A DNA stretch of 64,000 nt from an uncultured Prevotellaceae bacterium. GTDB lineage: Bacteria; Bacteroidota; Bacteroidia; Bacteroidales; Bacteroidaceae. Made by a program: the position numbers and the translations under genes. The notes below the pieces were generated by a model, which was not told where the DNA came from, ran no database searches, and saw only the letters and a list, made by a program, of their open reading frames with translations. Location: contig ONLL01000010.1 of the NCBI GenBank assembly GCA_900318685.1, positions 1 through 64,000 of the forward strand. Direction: 5' to 3'. This document shows, piece by piece, positions 276-11,300 of the stretch. How positions within the stretch are numbered: the first letter of the stretch is position 1; every line of letters begins with the position of its first letter.

Positions 276-2372
276 TTACTGACGCAGTTGATATAGCGGG
301 CGGTGATCCTTGGTATCCAGGGGCTGCGTGGCTTTGCTGCTCCCTAGAGGGGTGATGCTGAGGTTGTCGAAGTAAGGTGTACAGACTCGCTTCTTCTGCA
401 ATGGAGCTATGAGTCCTGCCATTCCTTTTTTATAATGGTCTGAGGTTGCGCTGAGCACTTCCTTGCCGTCGATGTAGCCAGTAATCTGGTCACCGATGAA
501 ACGCAGTCTGAGGTTGTGCCACTGCAGCGATGAGATGTCCGGCACTTTGGCTGTAGCCAGTGTGTACTCACCTCCTATCTCCACATCCTTACGCGCCAGA
601 ATGATGGCTTGTTGCTCAGCGTCGCCTATCAGTTCCTTGGGGTCTGGTTTTCCGCGTGAGAGGATGAGGGTGCAGTTGCCTTGGTCGTCGAGTTTCATGT
701 AATATCCCTTGACCCAGACTCCATAGCCTGTACCCACGTCACATAGTCGCCCCATCACTCCAGCCTCATCGCCGGGTGTGAGATAGACATCGGCACTGAC
801 CTCATAGTCGCGCCAGGCTGAATCGCCCAGGATGGTGTAATGATGCCATTCAGGAGCCCAGCTGAGGGTGTGCTCGCCTACCACCTGACGGATGCACTGG
901 CCTTGACCTTCTGGACGTGTTGTGAGTTCGAATGCTCCAATGATATCTGCCAGATAGCGGGGCAGATACCCCCAAGTGGAAGGCTGGGTGTACTGGTCGA
1001 AGTTGTCTGCATAGGGAAGCGGGAAAGGTGCTGAGGCAGGGATATCGGTGAACGATCCTTTCTGCTGACCAGTGGTGGTGGAGAGAGAATAGACGGTGCC
1101 AGGCTCAAGGGTGATGGTGAAGTGCCCGCTTTTCTGACTGATGTCCTGCTGTCGCACAAACTGTTCCTGGGCATTGCTCATCCAGACGCAGAGTGCCTTG
1201 CGGCTGAGTCCCTTGGGCAGACGCACTTCCACGCTTTGTGCACTCTTGGCATCCTTGGTTTCGATGATGATACTATAGTCATCCGTAGCTGGATTGCGCA
1301 TCATGACCATGCTGCCTCCACCTTCCAGCTTCACGCATCCCTGATCAATGTACTGCCATCCCACAGCCGAGAACTGTCCATAGTGAGCATAGCCCCACAG
1401 TGCCTCGCGCAAGGAATAATGTCCGCTCCAGGGCTCACGGGCCAGCAACATAGCAGGATCCTGGCTGTAGGGTTCGAGGGGATAGACACCGGCGATGTCA
1501 TACCAGTTGATAATGCGTGTGGCACCACTGACGATGTAGTTCTCATTGAAGCACTTGACGATGCTGATGAGGCAGTTGAAGCCCTTGAGATAGACATGGT
1601 CCTCGCTGTTCCAGATGGGTTTCCCCATTGCCTCTATGGCTGTGCGCTGTTCCTGTGAGATAGGGATCTCGCTGTAGGTGTGGGCACAGACGGCATCAAG
1701 AGCGTCGGCCAGCTCCTTGTCCTGCTGCATGTACTTGACAAAGTCCAACTTCGATTTGCCCCAGTTGCCGAATCCATGCAATTTCACCTCCTTGAATCCA
1801 CGCTCATTCATGGCCTTGCGCATCTTCTTTGCAAAGTCCCCGTTCCAGCCTCTCTCGTTGTGACAGCCCAGTGCATCCAGCTCCATGCCATGCACCTGCC
1901 TCAGTCCCTGCATCCAGGCGATATAGTAGTCCACCATGTCATCAGACCAGCAACTGCCCACCCATGCCGGTGAGCTCCAAGCCGTAGCATCCAGAGCCAG
2001 CTGTGGATTGCGCTTGTGTGCTTCACGCATCACCCACCAGATGTAGCCACGCATGAAGTTGTTGTCGCCTCGATAATGACTATGAGAGGGCATAGACCCT
2101 TGAGTGCTGTTCCCGTCGCCAGGCACTTCCACAAGCATGGCACTGACGCTGGCTCCGAACATGGGTTTGAACACCAGGTCCATGATCTGCGAGCGCTGGG
2201 GCTCAGGGTAGTCCTTGAGCAGCACGGAGGTGGCACCACCACCATTCACAGCTCCAATGCCATCGAAACGCTTACCCTGCTGGAGATTAGTAATGCGGAT
2301 GATCTGTGTGGCATTTGCGGCACCGACAGCCAGTGCCAACAACAATGTGAGAAGCGATAACTTTTTCATCAT
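276..2372 (-). CDS. GH59 galactocerebrosidase-family glycoside hydrolase, secreted
   Basis: A 698-residue protein with a signal peptide (about 1-21). Residues 30-440 follow the galactosylceramidase (GH59) pattern closely: FDGIGAVNGGGATS near 36, YPEPQRSQIMD near 55, FGASVSAMLVEVPGDGNS and the PSHSHY segment. The acid/base glutamate is E173 in the CHNERGW context, and the nucleophile is E257 in WNSED. A C-terminal segment (about 450-690) looks like a concanavalin/LamG-type sandwich (a YADNFDQY start and a DGKEVLSATSDHYKKGMAGL end). GH59 enzymes release beta-linked galactose; whether the substrate here is a glycolipid or a galactan cannot be told. Monocistronic, minus strand. Confidence 0.87.
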   Translation of the reverse strand: MMKKLSLLTLLLALAVGAANATQIIRITNLQQGKRFDGIGAVNGGGATSVLLKDYPEPQRSQIMDLVFKPMFGASVSAMLVEVPGDGNSTQGSMPSHSHYRGDNNFMRGYIWWVMREAHKRNPQLALDATAWSSPAWVGSCWSDDMVDYYIAWMQGLRQVHGMELDALGCHNERGWNGDFAKKMRKAMNERGFKEVKLHGFGNWGKSKLDFVKYMQQDKELADALDAVCAHTYSEIPISQEQRTAIEAMGKPIWNSEDHVYLKGFNCLISIVKCFNENYIVSGATRIINWYDIAGVYPLEPYSQDPAMLLAREPWSGHYSLREALWGYAHYGQFSAVGWQYIDQGCVKLEGGGSMVMMRNPATDDYSIIIETKDAKSAQSVEVRLPKGLSRKALCVWMSNAQEQFVRQQDISQKSGHFTITLEPGTVYSLSTTTGQQKGSFTDIPASAPFPLPYADNFDQYTQPSTWGYLPRYLADIIGAFELTTRPEGQGQCIRQVVGEHTLSWAPEWHHYTILGDSAWRDYEVSADVYLTPGDEAGVMGRLCDVGTGYGVWVKGYYMKLDDQGNCTLILSRGKPDPKELIGDAEQQAIILARKDVEIGGEYTLATAKVPDISSLQWHNLRLRFIGDQITGYIDGKEVLSATSDHYKKGMAGLIAPLQKKRVCTPYFDNLSITPLGSSKATQPLDTKDHRPLYQLRQ

Positions 2373-2413
2373 TTATTTATTTTAGCAGATGTAGTATTTC
2401 CTGTAGTCCGCTG

Positions 2414-2421
2414 CAAAGATA
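2414..2421 (-). promoter_or_regulatory. -7 promoter box for the GH59 gene
   Basis: On the minus strand this reads TATCTTTG, matching the Bacteroidetes -7 consensus TAnnTTTG, about 40 nt upstream of the start. No convincing -33 box lies at the usual 19-20 nt. Confidence 0.55.
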
Positions 2422-2648
2422 ATCAATTTTTTTCAAACTAAGCTAATAATTAGCCATAAAAATGCTATTTCACATGCTTTTCTACACTTTTCCAAGGTAA
2501 AAGACCTGGAATTCAAGTTTCGAAAGCTTTGCTTGACTTGGAGTGTAGGAGTTTAGGAGTCTAGACAAGAGAGAGGGGAACCCCATCGCTGAGATTCCCC
2601 CCTGAGTCCTTTTGCAAGGCATATATAAAATCTATGGAACTATCACTT

Positions 2649-3320
2649 TTAGCGGCGACCATGATGGGTGTTGTGGGCTCTTCCACGGCCTGGGCCAGGT
2701 GCTGCATGACCACGACCAGGAGCTGCAGGAGGAGGAGCTACATGACCTCTGCCATGAGCAGGAGGAGGAGCTACATGACCTCTGCCATGAGCAGGAGGAG
2801 GAGCCATGTGACCACGGCCAGTGTCACGCCAAGTAGTGCCGTGCACCAGGGGCCTTCTGTCTGCATAGAAGTGAGCTGCCAGACGGTTGTGGCCACCACG
2901 ATAGCTCACATACACTGAGGGACGAGCCCTGAAGAATCTGCCCCTGTCAGTATAGTGGGTGTAGATGTGCAGGCGCCACACTCCGGCATCCCAAGCCAGG
3001 GGACGATAGAAGTAGCCCAGGGTGAGGTAGCGGTCATACTGCAGGGCTGTGAGGACATAGCGCAGGTCAGCATTACGACGGGCCCACCACGATCCATAGA
3101 GGTCATCCCTGCCAGTAACACTCATCAGGTAGTCGAGGTTGATCTCGTAGACTGCATCATATTGAGCATCCGTCAGGCCCAGCTCATAGGCCATCTTGTC
3201 GCTCAGGAACAAGGCCTCTCTCCTTGCGTTCTCATAGCTCATGGCTGAGCGGGGAGGCATAGCTGCGTTGGCTGCGATGGCTATCGTCATCATCATGGCC
3301 AGGATCATCATCTTCTTCAT
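2649..3320 (-). CDS. secreted protein with Gly/Arg/His/Pro repeat tail
   Basis: A 223-residue protein of unknown function. It has a signal peptide (about 1-19). A globular part (20-160) contains LGLTDAQYDAVYEINLDY, which resembles the LTxxQ motif of Spy/CpxP-type periplasmic proteins. The low-complexity tail (about 165-223) is rich in Gly, Arg, His and Pro, with near-identical HGRGHVAPPPA repeats. The tail is encoded by a 33-bp tandem DNA repeat, so its length may differ between strains. The start is the first Met, and a promoter lies about 55 nt upstream. Metal or polyanion binding by the His/Arg tail is only a guess. Confidence 0.75.
   Translation of the reverse strand: MKKMMILAMMMTIAIAANAAMPPRSAMSYENARREALFLSDKMAYELGLTDAQYDAVYEINLDYLMSVTGRDDLYGSWWARRNADLRYVLTALQYDRYLTLGYFYRPLAWDAGVWRLHIYTHYTDRGRFFRARPSVYVSYRGGHNRLAAHFYADRRPLVHGTTWRDTGRGHMAPPPAHGRGHVAPPPAHGRGHVAPPPAAPGRGHAAPGPGRGRAHNTHHGRR
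2728..2812 (-). repeat. 33-bp coding tandem repeat
   Basis: Two perfect 33-bp units (2728-2760 and 2761-2793) and a third partial, diverged unit. Each encodes an 11-residue HGRGHVAPPPA-type repeat of the secreted protein. Because 33 is a multiple of three, gain or loss of units keeps the frame. Confidence 0.85.
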
Positions 3321-3373
3321 AATATGTTTCTCCTATTCTTTAAAATGGTTCGACTTATTAACTTTTCTCGCTG

Positions 3374-3404
3374 CAAAGGTAGGCCTTTTTTGCGTGCTCC
3401 GCAA
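3374..3404 (-). promoter_or_regulatory. promoter for the repeat-tail protein
   Basis: On the minus strand, TTG (3404-3402), 20 nt, then TACCTTTG (3381-3374). Both boxes fit the Bacteroidetes sigma-ABfr pattern. Confidence 0.65.
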
Positions 3405-3499
3405 GGGATTATTCCTAAAGTGGAGGGTGGAATACTCTATACTTTGAGGGGAAATCCCTATAGCCCTGTATTTAGTCATAGGTCGCTACGCTCAAAATT

Positions 3500-3540
3500 A
3501 AAAGCCCTCCCGCACCAAAAAAGCACGGAAGAGGCTTTTT
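3500..3540 (-). terminator. possible terminator after the HU-like gene
   Basis: On the minus strand, AAAAGCC and GGCTTTT arms close an imperfect hairpin about 40 nt past the stop of the gene at 3578, followed by AATTTT. The inner stem has mismatches. Confidence 0.4.
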
Positions 3541-3577
3541 AAACTCCCCTCCCCTTGGGATGGGCAGGGAGTGGATG

Positions 3578-4135
3578 TTAAGGTCTGGGCTCATCATCAC
3601 CACCATCACCACCACCCGAGTCATCACCACTCGGAGTGATACCGCTGCCAGTGGCATTCTGGGCAAGCTCGAAGCGCACATCCTTCAGCATGGTGGCAGG
3701 ATGGCTGTAGGTGCTCACCTCATAGTCCACCACCGTGGGCACACCATTCACCAGGGCAGGACGCTGCACAGTGGCAGTCTCACCGGTGGGAGTGGAGGTG
3801 GTCTCAGGGGCAAAGAGCACGCGGCTCTTCTTCACATTGGCGGCAGTGCAGCCTTCCTCCGTGTCAGAGGGAGAGCTAGTGATGCCCACCTTGAAGATGC
3901 CGATGCCCTCGATCTTCACCTTCTGACCAAGCTCGAAGTAGTGTTTCATGGCCATTCCAAGCTCGTCGAGCACTGCTTTGCAGTCAGAGCGCTTCACTGA
4001 GGCCTGCATCTGGATGTAGTCGGCCAGCTCGTCGGTGGTGATGAACTTCTTGTCGTAGACGGCTCTGACATAGTACTTGCCAAACATCTTCGACAACTCA
4101 TTCGTGTTTTTGTACTTTTGAACTTTTTGTGACAT
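3578..4135 (-). CDS. HU-HIG family DNA-binding protein
   Basis: A 185-residue protein. Residues 1-125 fit the Bacteroidetes HU-HIG (HU, histone-like, Ig-associated) family: a helical dimerisation part (TTDELADYIQMQASVKRSDCKAVLDELG), then an IHF/HU-like beta segment (FELGQKVKIEGIGIFKVGI). Residues 130-165 are a short extension. The tail is Gly/Asp-rich (GDDSGGGDGGDDEPRP). Such proteins are nucleoid-like DNA binders, and as I recall they are often found in Bacteroidales accessory islands near VirE_N/DUF3987 proteins, one of which is encoded at 6356. It has its own promoter with a long leader of about 85 nt. Confidence 0.85.
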   Translation of the reverse strand: MSQKVQKYKNTNELSKMFGKYYVRAVYDKKFITTDELADYIQMQASVKRSDCKAVLDELGMAMKHYFELGQKVKIEGIGIFKVGITSSPSDTEEGCTAANVKKSRVLFAPETTSTPTGETATVQRPALVNGVPTVVDYEVSTYSHPATMLKDVRFELAQNATGSGITPSGDDSGGGDGGDDEPRP

Positions 4136-4226
4136 AGTTGTAAACTTTTATTAAGATTAATAACTAAGGATTATTTACCGGAATAACAGCTCCGAAACTG
4201 GCATTCTCTAATGCTTTTCTACGCTA

Positions 4227-4258
4227 CAAAGGTACAAAAAAAATCTGAAATCACCAAA
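4227..4258 (-). promoter_or_regulatory. promoter for the HU-HIG gene
   Basis: Minus strand: TTTG (4258-4255), 20 nt, TACCTTTG (4234-4227). The predicted transcript starts about 85 nt before the ATG. Confidence 0.75.
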
Positions 4259-4280
4259 CTTTTTGGCAACTTTTTTTAAT

Positions 4281-4324: not shown

Positions 4325-4741
4325 CTATGGCACGACGGCCATCAGCTCTTTGCCAATCTTATGAATACCATCCACTATACGCTCCCTCTGATGAGACCGG
4401 GCCTTTTTAAGTCCGTTAGCATAGTGTGACAACTGATGCTGATTGATGCCAGAGGCGCGGCTGATGGCAGCCAGCGACAGATAGGGGCTATAGGCTTTCA
4501 GCAATGAGGTGGCATCCAGAAATTTATATTCAAACTCGTACTCCTTATTGACAAGCCACCCAGGCACCTCGTCGCCATCCTCAACCATGCCCTCCACATG
4601 GAATTCAAGGCTCTCCCTGGCCTCTTTCTGCAGCTCTACAAACGTGTCGGCTGTAAATGCCACTGCTCCAGGCACATTCTCTCCCAGTGATGCCGAGAAA
4701 TTGTTCTCACACCAAGATACGTCTACTCTGATCTTCTCCAT
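4325..4741 (-). CDS. hicB: HicB-family antitoxin, apparently without a HicA partner
   Basis: A 138-residue protein. The N-terminal part (about 1-72) has the HicB partial-RNase-H-like pattern (VDVSWCENNFSASLGENVPGAVAFTA, then a LEFHVEGM helix). The C-terminal part (about 80-130) has a helix-turn-helix (LSLAAISRASGINQHQLSHYANG) of the XRE/Cro kind. HicB normally neutralises the HicA mRNA interferase and represses the hicAB operon. No HicA-sized gene is visible on either side, and the gene has its own promoter and terminator. It may be an orphan regulator or a relic. Confidence 0.8.
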   Translation of the reverse strand: MEKIRVDVSWCENNFSASLGENVPGAVAFTADTFVELQKEARESLEFHVEGMVEDGDEVPGWLVNKEYEFEYKFLDATSLLKAYSPYLSLAAISRASGINQHQLSHYANGLKKARSHQRERIVDGIHKIGKELMAVVP

Positions 4742-5295: not shown

Positions 5296-6261
5296 ATGAG
5301 CAGAATAATAAAGAAAGGCGGCAAGAGCCGACTATTGACTGGCGATGGGCGGGTTCTCAGTCTCGAGGAGCTGCAGCAGTTGCACGAGCAGGTTATATTG
5401 GGATCAGGGACGCCGTATGTGACTGGTTCTCAACTGTTCAAGCCCGCCAAGTGGAGTTACCACAGGGGGAGAGGCAGCATCAGGGGAACGGCTGCTAAGT
5501 ATTATATAGTGTTTCCTCCTGGCAAGGACGGGATGAAGGAGACGATCGAGAAGCTGTTGGAGAAGTCGGGAAAGCGAGACCTTGCCGATCTTCTGGGCAT
5601 CAGACCTGGAGGGTACGAGCTAGTCAGATTGATGCATGCCAGGCCCAGGAAGAGCCGTCAGATGAAGTCGCCGCGCGATATATCCACTTTACTGGACCTC
5701 TACCGGCTGAAGAATGCTGCTCCCCGAAGGCCCCGCCCCAATGCCATCTCCATCGACTCATCGCTGCACAGCCAAGCCGAAATTGAAAAGATGACTGTCT
5801 TTTTCGAAGAGAACAACATCGACGTGACCTGGCTTGACTCTGCGCAACTGGGTAAGGAGAATTCGCTCCAGGCGGCCATCACCCACCTTAACTCGCCCGA
5901 AGCCGTAGCTCCCCGCTGCAACATCATGTACGGCTACGACTATGCCTGGGTGAAGCGTGCCATCGACAAGAGATTGTTTCCCGGCGCTGAAAAGATCAGG
6001 AATTATTCGTTCCCGCAGTTCAAGAGGTATATGGAGCAGCTGGGCTTCAAGAATGTGGCGGGTGCGAAGACGCTGGCCAAGTATTACAATCAGGCTGAAG
6101 GCACCAAGCTGCCCTGGACGTATAAGGACTGCACCGACCGCCGCGATGAGGCCCTGCGCCGCAACCGCATCGTAGGCAAGTTCTTAGAGATGATGTATGA
6201 GGCCTGGGAGGTCATTAAGAAGGATGGCGAGAGTGCCATCACCGGAGGACAAAGGGGCTGA
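5296..6261 (+). CDS. uncharacterised basic protein next to primase-like gene
   Basis: A 321-residue protein I do not recognise. It is basic at the N terminus (MSRIIKKGGKSR), has no signal peptide or membrane segment, and is rich in Lys/Arg around 110-150. A helical C-terminal part (about 225-315) contains YSFPQFKRYMEQLGFKNV and RRDEALRRNRIVGKFLEMMYEAWE. Its basic character and position, between repeat B and a primase/helicase-like gene on the same strand, suggest a nucleic-acid role such as initiator or accessory replication protein. That is inference from context only. It has its own promoter, and the next gene has another. Confidence 0.75.
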   Translation: MSRIIKKGGKSRLLTGDGRVLSLEELQQLHEQVILGSGTPYVTGSQLFKPAKWSYHRGRGSIRGTAAKYYIVFPPGKDGMKETIEKLLEKSGKRDLADLLGIRPGGYELVRLMHARPRKSRQMKSPRDISTLLDLYRLKNAAPRRPRPNAISIDSSLHSQAEIEKMTVFFEENNIDVTWLDSAQLGKENSLQAAITHLNSPEAVAPRCNIMYGYDYAWVKRAIDKRLFPGAEKIRNYSFPQFKRYMEQLGFKNVAGAKTLAKYYNQAEGTKLPWTYKDCTDRRDEALRRNRIVGKFLEMMYEAWEVIKKDGESAITGGQRG

Positions 6262-6355: not shown

Positions 6356-8752
6356 ATGAATACAACAGCCATTTTCGCAGTCAACCCCCGCCCGAAGGAC
6401 AGTAAGACGGGAAAGATCATGGGCAAGTACCATCGCGGCTATGCCGAGCCTGCCACGGCCGAGACTGTGCTGGAGATGATCAGCCGCGAGGACGTTAGCC
6501 AGACGGTGACAGCCATCCGCAACGGCCAGGTAGAACTGAAGGATCAGCTGCCCTCGGTGTGCCCCCACTACTCGATGTTCCGCCGCAACCACCGCGCCCA
6601 AGCCGACATCGTGCCCGAGGCGTTCACCTACAAGACCTGCATCGACATCGACGAGCCTCTATTGGTGGAGCAGGCCAAGGAGAAGGCCCTGGAGGTGAAT
6701 GCCGACGAATATTCCGAATGGGAGCATGCAGTACTTTACATCGACTATTCTCCCCGTAAGAAGCTCCACATCTGGGTGCTCATGCCTAAGGGAATGACCA
6801 TCGAGGAGAGTCAGCGAGCCTTCTGTGAAGAGATAGGAGTGCCCTACGATGAAAGCTGCGTCACTCCCGAGCGCTACATCTACATGACCGGTGACGAGGT
6901 CTATCGTTCCGACAACTGGCTCAAGCCCCTCTCCAACAAGGAGATAGAGGAGCGCCGCGAAGCCTTCCTCGCCCGTGGACTCGACATGGACGGCCGTAAG
7001 CTGGAGTCGGGCAGCAAGGCTCAGGCACAAACCATAACTGCCGCCGCCCAGGACTCTCAGAAACCTTGTCTGGAACAGCCTCAGCCGGCCGACGACCGCA
7101 CCCGCTACATTGTGGCCGAATGCCTGAAGGAGGCAGGACTGCAGGTGTGTCATCTCAATACGATAGGAGGCATTCACAACGCCGTGAAGAGCATGCTCTC
7201 CGTAGGTGCCACTCAACTGCTTGGACAAGGTGAGCTGCTGGGCGTGCTGCGCGAACTGATGCCTCAGTACTGGGACGACCCCAACATACTGCAGCTCATA
7301 GCCGATTTCTATCAGAAGTACACCGACACCAGCCAAAAGATGACCCAGTTCCAGCGCCGCGTCTTCGCCGAGAGCCTTCGCCTGGACAGCCATCGTGAGA
7401 CTTCAACCGCCGAGAAAGCAGCAGCGATAGTCATCGACGAGCAGCAGCACAAGGTCGTCTATGGTGACAAGGCCTCACTCTCCGACATCTATTCATCGCC
7501 CGAGCCTCCCATGCTGCCTGAGGTGCTGCCTCGCTTGCCCAAGGCCGTCACAGCGCTCACTCCCGACGAGATGAAGGCCACCGTGGCACAAGGCATGTTC
7601 CCCGCACTAGGTGTCTATCCGAATGGAGCGAAGTACCTCTTCATCGACAATCAGTACCGTGAGCTGCGCATGAACTGCCTCGTCATTGCCGAGACGGGCA
7701 GCGGTAAGGACACCAGCATGAAGCAGCCCCTGAAGCACATCACCAAGCCTATGGTCGATCGCGACAACATCAACCGCAAGCGCCTGCAGGAATTCAACGA
7801 GCAGTACAACTCGAAGTCAGCCAATGCCGACAAGCCCAAGCGCCCTGTCGACCTCATCATACAGCATGTCAGCCCCGACATCACCAGCGCACGACTGTCG
7901 CAATGCATGGCCGACTCGCAGGGAGCATTTCTCTACACACATCTGCATGAGTTTGAGCAGTGGTACGGCATCGAGGGTGTCAGGGGAATAAGCTGCACCT
8001 TCAAGAACCTCAAACTGGCCGATGACGAGGATAACCCCTTCGGACAAGAGCGTGCTGGAGCGCAGAGCGTCAACTATCGCGGTCCGCTGGGACTGAACTG
8101 GAATGCATCGACCACACCCACCAAGGCGCAGTACATGTTCCGCCATGTGCTCATCGACGGACCCATCAGTCGACTCTGCCTGGCCACTACGCCCTACATG
8201 GGACTCGGAGCACCCATACCTGTCTATGGACGATATGACCAGCGCTACGACGAGTCACTCAAAAAGTTCATCGACTGTCTGAAGGCAACAACAGGTGAAA
8301 TCTACTGCAAGCAGGCATGGAAGCTGACAACACAACTCAAGGCAGAGTGCGACCAGTTTGCCCAGCAGACACAGGATGAGGTGTTCGACAACCTCTCGCA
8401 CCGCGCACTAGTGCATGCATTCCGCAAGGCCTGTCTGCTGTACTCAGCCAACGGAAACAAGTGGGAAAAGGCTATTGAGGGATTCTGCCGCTGGAGCCTG
8501 CACTACGACCTCTGGCTCAAGCTCCACTTCTTCGGCGACCTCATACGCAATGCTGGCAGTCAGATACACACATCTCACCGTGGACCTAGCAACCTCCTCG
8601 ACCTGCTTCCTCAAACTTTCAAGTATCAGGATGCCGTCAACGTGCGCATGCAGATTGGAAAGGATGCCGAACATGCTGCCAACATGCTCAGTCAGTGGGT
8701 GCATCGCGGCTACATCATCCGCCTCTCCAACGATACTTTCAAAAAGGCATAG
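6356..8752 (+). CDS. VirE_N/DUF3987-type primase-helicase-like protein
   Basis: About 798 residues from the ATG at 6356. The N-terminal third resembles the BT4734/VirE N-terminal domain, a primase-polymerase-like fold: CIDIDEP, HAVLYIDYSPRKKLHIWVLM, then CVTPERYIYMTG. A linker (about 225-330) leads to a DUF3987-like region whose P-loop-like stretch AETGSGKDTS is near residue 445. HLHEFEQWYG, about 95 residues later, may be an acidic Walker-B-type site. Such proteins are found in Bacteroidales mobile and accessory islands and are thought to be replication proteins. The stop is 12 nt before repeat copy C. Family assignment is good; biochemical activity is not shown. Confidence 0.78.
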   Translation: MNTTAIFAVNPRPKDSKTGKIMGKYHRGYAEPATAETVLEMISREDVSQTVTAIRNGQVELKDQLPSVCPHYSMFRRNHRAQADIVPEAFTYKTCIDIDEPLLVEQAKEKALEVNADEYSEWEHAVLYIDYSPRKKLHIWVLMPKGMTIEESQRAFCEEIGVPYDESCVTPERYIYMTGDEVYRSDNWLKPLSNKEIEERREAFLARGLDMDGRKLESGSKAQAQTITAAAQDSQKPCLEQPQPADDRTRYIVAECLKEAGLQVCHLNTIGGIHNAVKSMLSVGATQLLGQGELLGVLRELMPQYWDDPNILQLIADFYQKYTDTSQKMTQFQRRVFAESLRLDSHRETSTAEKAAAIVIDEQQHKVVYGDKASLSDIYSSPEPPMLPEVLPRLPKAVTALTPDEMKATVAQGMFPALGVYPNGAKYLFIDNQYRELRMNCLVIAETGSGKDTSMKQPLKHITKPMVDRDNINRKRLQEFNEQYNSKSANADKPKRPVDLIIQHVSPDITSARLSQCMADSQGAFLYTHLHEFEQWYGIEGVRGISCTFKNLKLADDEDNPFGQERAGAQSVNYRGPLGLNWNASTTPTKAQYMFRHVLIDGPISRLCLATTPYMGLGAPIPVYGRYDQRYDESLKKFIDCLKATTGEIYCKQAWKLTTQLKAECDQFAQQTQDEVFDNLSHRALVHAFRKACLLYSANGNKWEKAIEGFCRWSLHYDLWLKLHFFGDLIRNAGSQIHTSHRGPSNLLDLLPQTFKYQDAVNVRMQIGKDAEHAANMLSQWVHRGYIIRLSNDTFKKA

Positions 8753-9965: not shown

Positions 9966-10194
9966 TGTGGATAACTGTGTGGATAACTTGTGGAAAACGG
10001 TGTGGAAAACCACAGCGGGGTGGTCTGTGTGTGGAAAAAAGAGAGGTTATTACGCCTTCTGGATGAAGTTTTCCACAAAAATATGCGGGAAATTTTTATA
10101 AACTTTGTATCTTTGCACCGAAAAAGGAAATTGTGGATAAGTGTCGTTGTGGGCTTATTATCAGCGAGTAATAATTCACAGGTGGTGTGGATAA
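9966..10194. other. DnaA-box cluster, candidate replication origin
   Basis: Four exact TGTGGATAA boxes (9966-9974, 9978-9986, 10132-10140, 10186-10194). Three TGTGGAAAA boxes with one mismatch lie at 9989-9997, 10001-10009 and 10030-10038, and one inverted TTTTCCACA at 10069-10077. The first four boxes are spaced 11-12 bp, about one helical turn, on the same face. An AT-rich stretch (10078-10110) lies between the two groups. This is what a bacterial DnaA-dependent origin looks like. No gene is seen from 9877 to 10319. Confidence 0.6.
10108..10115 (+). promoter_or_regulatory. -7 box upstream of nadA
   Basis: TATCTTTG, followed by a leader of about 200 nt that contains two of the DnaA boxes and a 13-A run (10295-10307) just before the start codon. 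No clear -33 box. Confidence 0.5.
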
Positions 10195-10319
10195 CGCTGA
10201 TGCCACGGCGGAATAACTTTCTGGGCAAGAAAAAGGGCCTCGAGTTTTCAACATATTCACGCCACATCATCCTTATCATTCTATTTTTAAAAAGAAAAAA
10301 AAAAAAAGAATATAATAAT

Positions 10320-11300
10320 ATGGTGTTGAAAAAAGAGTGGATAGAGCAGGGATACATCGATGAGCCGGTGGACCTGCAGGCAGAGATTCGTCGTCTGTGT
10401 GAGGAGAAGAATGCCATTGTGCTGGCTCACTACTATACTACTGGCGACATTCAGGAGGTGGCTGACTTCATAGGTGACTCGCTGGCCCTGGCACGCAAGG
10501 CTGCCCAGACTGACGCGAAGATCATCGTGATGGCTGGTGTGCACTTCATGGCTGAGACTTGCAAGCTGCTCTCGCCTGAGAAGCTGGTGCTGTGTCCTGA
10601 CCTGAATGCAGGTTGCTCGCTGGCTGACTCGTGCAAGGCTGAGGACCTGAGGAAGTATAAGGAGGAGCATCCGGGCTACAAGGTGGTGAGCTATGTGAAC
10701 ACTACTGCTGCCGTGAAGGCTCTGACGGATGTGGTGGTGACCAGCGGCAATGCCAAGCAGATCGTGGACACGTTCCCTCAGGATGAGAAGATCATCTTCG
10801 GTCCTGACTATAACCTGGGATCATATATCAATGCTGTGACAGGCCGCCAGATGCTGCTGTGGCAGGGTGGATGTCATGTGCATGAGCGCTTCTCGTTGGA
10901 GGCCATCGTGAAGCTTAGGCAGGAGCATCCTGGAGCCCTGGTGCTGGCTCATCCTGAGTGTAAGGGTCCGGTGCTGAAGGTGGCTGATGTGGTGGGGTCA
11001 ACGGCCGTGCTGCTGAAGCATGTGGTGGAGCATCCTGAGCATGAGTATATCGTGGCTACTGAGGCAGGCATCCTGCATGAGATGCATCGTCAGTGTCCTC
11101 AGACGGTGCTCTATGCCGTGCCTCCTGAAGTGTCGGAGGGCTCTGTGGGCTGTCACTGCAACGAGTGTCAGTATATGAAGATGAACACGCTGCTGAAGAT
11201 CTACAACTGTCTGAAGTATGAGTGGCCCAGCGTGGAGGTGGATCCTGAGATTGCCAAGGATGCGGTGAAGCCGATTGAGAGGATGTTGGGGCTGTCATAG
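10320..11300 (+). CDS. nadA: quinolinate synthase NadA
   Basis: A 326-residue protein that condenses iminoaspartate with dihydroxyacetone phosphate to quinolinate in NAD synthesis, using a [4Fe-4S] cluster. Family motifs are clear: AHYYTTGDIQEVADFIGDSL near 36-55, MAGVHFMAETCKLLSP near 71-86, and likely cluster cysteines C99 (LNAGCS), C214 (HPECKGP) and one of C278/C280/C283 (VGCHCNEC). The frame stays open further upstream, but family homology begins right after the ATG at 10320, so that start is chosen. nadB and nadC are not in the window. Confidence 0.96.
   Translation: MVLKKEWIEQGYIDEPVDLQAEIRRLCEEKNAIVLAHYYTTGDIQEVADFIGDSLALARKAAQTDAKIIVMAGVHFMAETCKLLSPEKLVLCPDLNAGCSLADSCKAEDLRKYKEEHPGYKVVSYVNTTAAVKALTDVVVTSGNAKQIVDTFPQDEKIIFGPDYNLGSYINAVTGRQMLLWQGGCHVHERFSLEAIVKLRQEHPGALVLAHPECKGPVLKVADVVGSTAVLLKHVVEHPEHEYIVATEAGILHEMHRQCPQTVLYAVPPEVSEGSVGCHCNECQYMKMNTLLKIYNCLKYEWPSVEVDPEIAKDAVKPIERMLGLS

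Follow-up and report, generated by a model that had tools for sequence, protein, structure and literature searches.

The window, by which we mean the whole 64-kb stretch of DNA analyzed here, carries a compact cassette of DnaA boxes and other conserved elements immediately upstream of nadA. The cassette begins with a left array (9966..10038, + strand) of five exact boxes starting at 9966, 9978, 9989, 10001, and 10030, the first four at 11–12-bp steps. It continues with an inverted box, TGTGGAAAA, inside a conserved GTTTTCCAC block (10069..10077, − strand), a promoter-like block of Bacteroidetes type (10092..10117, + strand), a central box (10132..10140, + strand), and a right box (10186..10194, + strand); the inverted, central, and right boxes are recognized both by motif match and by alignment. 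Within the promoter-like block lies TATCTTTG at 10108–10115, which we take to be the −7 motif of the Bacteroidetes promoter class; no clear −33 motif was identified in 10092..10117. Two weak inverted boxes follow on the − strand (10245..10261), TTTTCAACA at 10245–10253 and ATATTCACG at 10253–10261, which have one base in common and carry two and three mismatches to TTATCCACA, respectively. Next come a DnaA-trio-like run that is our candidate unwinding element (10266..10289, + strand; ATC ATC CTT ATC ATT CTA TTT TTA) and an A-rich stretch from the trios to the nadA start codon (10290..10319, + strand), which could be an extension of the opened region. The nadA gene itself (10320..11300, + strand), a quinolinate synthase by PF02445 (E = 8.1e-118) and NF006878 (above cut-off), is a neighbor that we place outside the putative origin.

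This arrangement recurs in relatives. We aligned the 450 bp upstream of nadA from 76 of 80 nadA loci (four with short upstream sequence were dropped) together with the window, and conservation begins with the left array and continues up to the start of nadA. Reading toward nadA, the alignment shows repeated TGTGGATAACT, the inverted box, the promoter-like block (approximately AAAAAAGATATAAACTTATTAATTTTGCACC), the central box, and the right box; after these, at its right end, come the weak inverted boxes (in many relatives TTATCAAC-TTATCAACG), then CATCAT..., then A-rich DNA. The left array keeps its position in the 76 relatives and varies in its number of boxes. The central box is the best conserved of all, and stands at a near-constant spacing from the promoter-like block, which is itself conserved.

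The original prediction of eight boxes within 230 bp, seven of them in one orientation, is borne out by an exact search. TGTGGAWAA matches at 9966, 9978, 9989, 10001, 10030, 10069 (−), 10132, and 10186, giving four copies of TGTGGATAA and four of TGTGGAAAA, with 7/8 on the + strand, and there is no exact box in the rest of the 64-kb window outside 9966–10194. Such boxes had been said to be rare by chance, and they are: 0.68 matches are expected in the window, and none of 100 shuffles reached eight. The predicted helical phasing holds in part, since the first four boxes are separated by near-helical steps of 12, 11, and 12 bp but are not exactly phased. The cluster was also taken to end at 10194. 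It is real, but it extends further, because a ninth, one-mismatch box lies at 10245–10253 (−), and the unit as a whole runs to about 10320. Dense clusters elsewhere in the genome would weigh against an origin here, and we searched the assembly from which the window comes (3.96 Mb in 66 contigs, 87% complete). It has 54 exact boxes, including the eight in the 9966–10194 cluster, and no other 500-bp stretch in its 66 contigs has more than two; the next-closest pairs are 100 bp (contig C30) and 431 bp (contig C15) apart. When 54 points were placed at random, more than three fell within 230 bp in none of 20,000 trials. In this assembly, at 87% completeness, the cluster is therefore both beyond chance and unique.

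An AT-rich stretch had been noted between two groups of boxes. It exists (10060–10139, 68%–70% AT), but richer DNA, at 72%–80% AT, is at 10260–10339, beside the boxes and over the trio-like run. Known unwinding modules of the kind called the basal unwinding system (BUS) have three parts (PMC8287927): a DnaA box that departs from TTATCCACA at no more than two positions, a spacer no longer than 16 bp, and three or more NAN triplets on the complementary strand. The predominant trio is 3'-GAT-5', above all beside the box. The window conforms to this rule with TTTTCAACA at 10245 (two mismatches), a 12-bp spacer, and eight triplets at 10266–10289, all eight having T as the middle base and so reading 3'-NAN-5' on the other strand. 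Among the 77 regions (window included), searched over their last 110 nt, the box-spacer-trio rule is satisfied in 50 and failed by 27. By comparison, 20 shuffles gave 2–8 of 77, the other strand gave four, and the leftmost 110 nt of these regions gave ten. A second weak box with at most three mismatches occurs at a fixed place in 69 of the 75 rows that are long enough (window included), and a run of at least three trios follows in the expected frame in 45 of these 69 regions, compared to none and two in the other frames and a mean of 7.5 (maximum 17) in shuffled sequences. The trios themselves depart from the consensus: the first is ATC (3'-TAG-5') rather than 3'-GAT-5' in 59/69 regions, and CTA (3'-GAT-5') appears as the commonest third trio (16/69), so that the predominant 3'-GAT-5' trio is not the one found next to the box. 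To judge from these patterns, the duplex would more likely open at the run at the right end than in the AT-rich gap at 10060–10139. We set the gap aside as an unwinding element because it contains the promoter-like block, and this block can disappear from a cassette that keeps its boxes and trios, as in locus L040 and in the inverted copy of locus L042.

The position of the cassette on the chromosome was assessed from cumulative GC skew, sampled in 20-kb stretches from the four relatives that are assembled in one or three contigs among 60 genomes of the same genus; the window's own contig informs on local skew only. The cassette lies at the sampled minimum in three of the four. In G024 (67 stretches, 3.52-Mb contig) a flat minimum spans 1.44–1.52 Mb and the site is at 1.5097 Mb. 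In G045 (21 stretches over 3.33 Mb, a resolution of >100 kb) the lowest value is at 2.753 Mb, the next at 2.960 Mb, and the site at 2.7637 Mb; a box group at 23.9–24.1 kb of this genome was considered as a rival origin and rejected, given a sampled minimum near 2.75 Mb, where the cassette sits. G010 (contig C3, 15 stretches, 1.98 Mb) has a shallow minimum at 0.7935 Mb, with the site at 0.8034 Mb. The fourth relative, G016 (20 stretches, 3.17 Mb), has an irregular skew with an undetrended minimum near 2.88 Mb and a detrended broad low at 0.4–1.12 Mb, within which its element, a weak profile match (26 bits), lies at 0.662 Mb.

Local skew changes across the cassette as well. In the window it is −0.013 over the 9.96 kb to the left, and +0.098 over 9.7 kb and +0.064 over 39.7 kb to the right; the final 43.6 kb of the contig are flat (−0.013, +0.012, +0.023). 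Between 50001 and 60000, a span of about 10 kb, the GC skew is negative and the AT skew is positive, opposite to most of the right side, which possibly reflects opposite-strand genes or an inversion. Of 56 loci that extend at least 3 kb to either side of the cassette, 50 show lower skew to the left than to the right, and 45 do so when the first kilobase on the right is omitted. The flank means in these loci, to which gene orientation contributes, are negative on the left in 37 and positive on the right in 51. Adjacency to dnaA, common for origins and not required of them, is not seen. In the single-contig relatives G024 and G045, dnaA is 840 kb and about 786 kb, respectively, from the cassette; in G000 and G010 the two are on different contigs. 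In the assembly of the window, no exact box occurs within the 20 kb surrounding dnaA on contig C22.

Clusters of DnaA boxes are also known at datA- or DARS-like sites, and a site that titrates or reactivates DnaA near an origin, without being the origin, would look similar at the level of boxes. The skew sampling leaves room for this reading, as it locates the origin only to tens of kilobases in G024 and to more than 100 kb in G045. Against it, there is no second cluster in the 64-kb window and no box in the 43.6 kb of the contig that lie outside it (loci L029–L031), and the weak boxes and trio-like run fit an unwinding module. We consider a titration site very improbable, and favor the reading of the cassette as the chromosomal origin.

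The range of the cassette was examined by box counts and by a profile. At least two exact boxes are present in the 450 bp upstream of nadA in 62 of the 76 loci, versus four of 1,735 control stretches from the same loci, and the cassette is kept upstream of nadA in records of Prevotella, Segatella, and Xylanibacter. Of 60 genomes of the same genus, only 31 gave a BLASTN match to the 441-bp region. We read the misses as divergence and built profile R1 (85 positions, 32 training rows; at least 55 bits for a strong hit), which recovered some of the missed genomes, for example G003, G026, G028, G045, and G053. R1 also matches, at 56 bits or more, 11 of the 14 nadA upstream regions with fewer than two exact boxes; among the remaining three, L042 and L046 are weak at nadA and L064 has no match. 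In 16 chosen genomes of the genus, some of the R1-searched genomes being records of training loci that match by construction (G059 is seemingly L043), R1 gave a strong hit in 11, ten of them single-copy and G044 with three. Lower scores were obtained for G012 (33.7 bits) and G016 (26.4 bits), weak ones for G004 and G008, and none for G009. As far as neighboring genes and the like tell, G003, G010, G024, G026, and G045 are outside the training rows. Under stricter filters, a family draw of 121 genomes yielded one strong hit in ten of 11 same-genus genomes and no hit in the same-genus G158. Outside the genus the same draw gave weak hits alone (14 genomes, at most 25.5 bits), which we read as promoter resemblance.

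Where there is a strong hit the cassette is single-copy, except in G044. In that record nadA occurs three times, and every copy is accompanied by an origin-like cassette (L025 on C26, L026 on C30, and L027 on C13); C26 and C30 share 89% identity over 5.7 kb, and one dnaA was found. Contamination is a likely explanation.

The proximity to nadA raises the question of whether the boxes belong to a DnaA-controlled regulatory region of this gene, through which NAD synthesis would be coupled to the cell cycle, with no origin involved. A promoter-like block among the boxes, a nadA start at 10320, and the two or more boxes in 62/76 upstream regions are what one would expect of such a region. Natural separations of cassette and gene speak against it. 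The cassette stands before a DUF3108 ORF in five genomes (G003, G010, G026, G101, and G127; PF11306 was confirmed on the G010 copy). A protein search found no nadA in G003 or G016, and in G026, G101, and G127 the view of nadA is limited to a 3-kb locus. The nadA of G010 lies at 1.72 Mb, 0.9 Mb from the cassette, and the 500 bp upstream of it contain no exact box. Locus L042 has the entire cassette, with its trios, in inverted orientation about 3.7 kb from nadA; nadA there lacks exact boxes and gives only a weak profile match. A 649-aa ORF at 2322–4271 of this locus, GyrB/ParE-like by eye, ends where the inverted cassette begins. Since cassette and nadA dissociate, and in three relatives the site falls at the minimum of the sampled skew, regulation of nadA as the sole role of the boxes is largely refuted and we regard it as very improbable.

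Returning to the cassette as origin, the promoter-like block is separable in its turn: it is replaced or degenerate, with boxes kept, in L040, in the inverted L042 copy, and in G016. Boxes and trios are both kept in L040, and L041 is similar by score and alignment. The G016 element (L270, G016:C1:662387, with no nadA found) has boxes, a trio-like run that reads by eye ATT CTT CTT ATT CTT, and a degenerate promoter-like block. A GT9 glycosyltransferase match is present in 28 compared loci, several of which are the same site. It lies upstream of cassettes linked to nadA as well as those of G010 and G016, and is absent within the short loci of G003, G026, G101, and G127. Its presence upstream of cassettes of both kinds makes it possible that cassettes with and without nadA share one ancestral place.

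To the left of the cassette, the window segment 3578–8752 looks like an inserted island. It has an HU-HIG protein (3578–4135), a sub-threshold HicB-like ORF (4325–4741), and two large + strand ORFs (5296–6261 and 6371 to 8752) with no Pfam or NCBIfam match. The possibility, also raised in the original prediction, that the boxes are the origin of an integrated plasmid or mobile element draws on these island-like neighbors, but it is extremely improbable and goes unsupported because the cassette is conserved across the genus, where it is single-copy in strong-hit genomes except G044, and no Rep or relaxase family was found among seven window proteins scanned.

We conclude that 9966–10320 is very probably the chromosomal oriC of a Prevotella-type bacterium, as indicated by a cluster unique in its assembly, a conserved cassette separable from nadA and dnaA, and a position at the lowest sampled skew in three relatives out of four. 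On this evidence the chromosomal reading of the original prediction is sustained. We infer from the sequence that DnaA would bind the boxes of the left array, the central box, and the right box, and that a DnaA filament would be guided from the weak boxes at 10245–10261 onto the trio-like single strand at 10266–10289. The duplex would then open at 10266–10289 and further into the A-rich DNA that precedes nadA, and loading of the helicase would lead to bidirectional replication. The promoter-like block probably drives nadA, in which case transcription would cross the unwinding element. A more doubtful idea is that the built-in promoter is kept beside nadA or DUF3108 to couple expression of the neighbor, often a gene of NAD synthesis, to origin opening, with DnaA acting on both.

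For rumen and gut bacteria that are represented mainly by fragmented genomes, these results provide a 350-bp candidate origin that can be tested. Growth-rate estimates from read depth, and the orientation of genomes, could then be anchored without recourse to dnaA. The cases in which cassette, promoter block, and nadA have come apart naturally are a clear-cut way of testing which components a Bacteroidetes origin requires.

The proposed origin is of an ordinary bacterial type, far from dnaA. Its right end resembles the BUS of the Bacillus subtilis type in combining a two-mismatch box, a 12-bp spacer, and complementary-strand NAN triplets (PMC8287927); it differs in its first triplets and in that dnaA is not adjacent to the cassette. 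The expectation that many Bacteroidetes origins do not sit beside dnaA agrees with the report that oriC is commonly far from dnaA in this group (PMC4755523). In the openly accessible literature that was searched, we found no nadA-adjacent Prevotella origin, cassette, or such module. A Prevotella origin far from dnaA is itself already predicted: the same source (PMC4755523) gives an Ori-Finder oriC for chromosome I of P. intermedia OMA14 at 1,498,452–1,498,927 (476 bp). By description rather than by sequence, the two are alike in their multiple DnaA boxes, GC-skew transition, location away from dnaA, and similar length, whereas neither a trio module nor a conserved cassette is described in the consulted passages of that report. 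To that prediction, the present analysis adds a defined cassette, a probable unwinding module, and natural separations from nadA.
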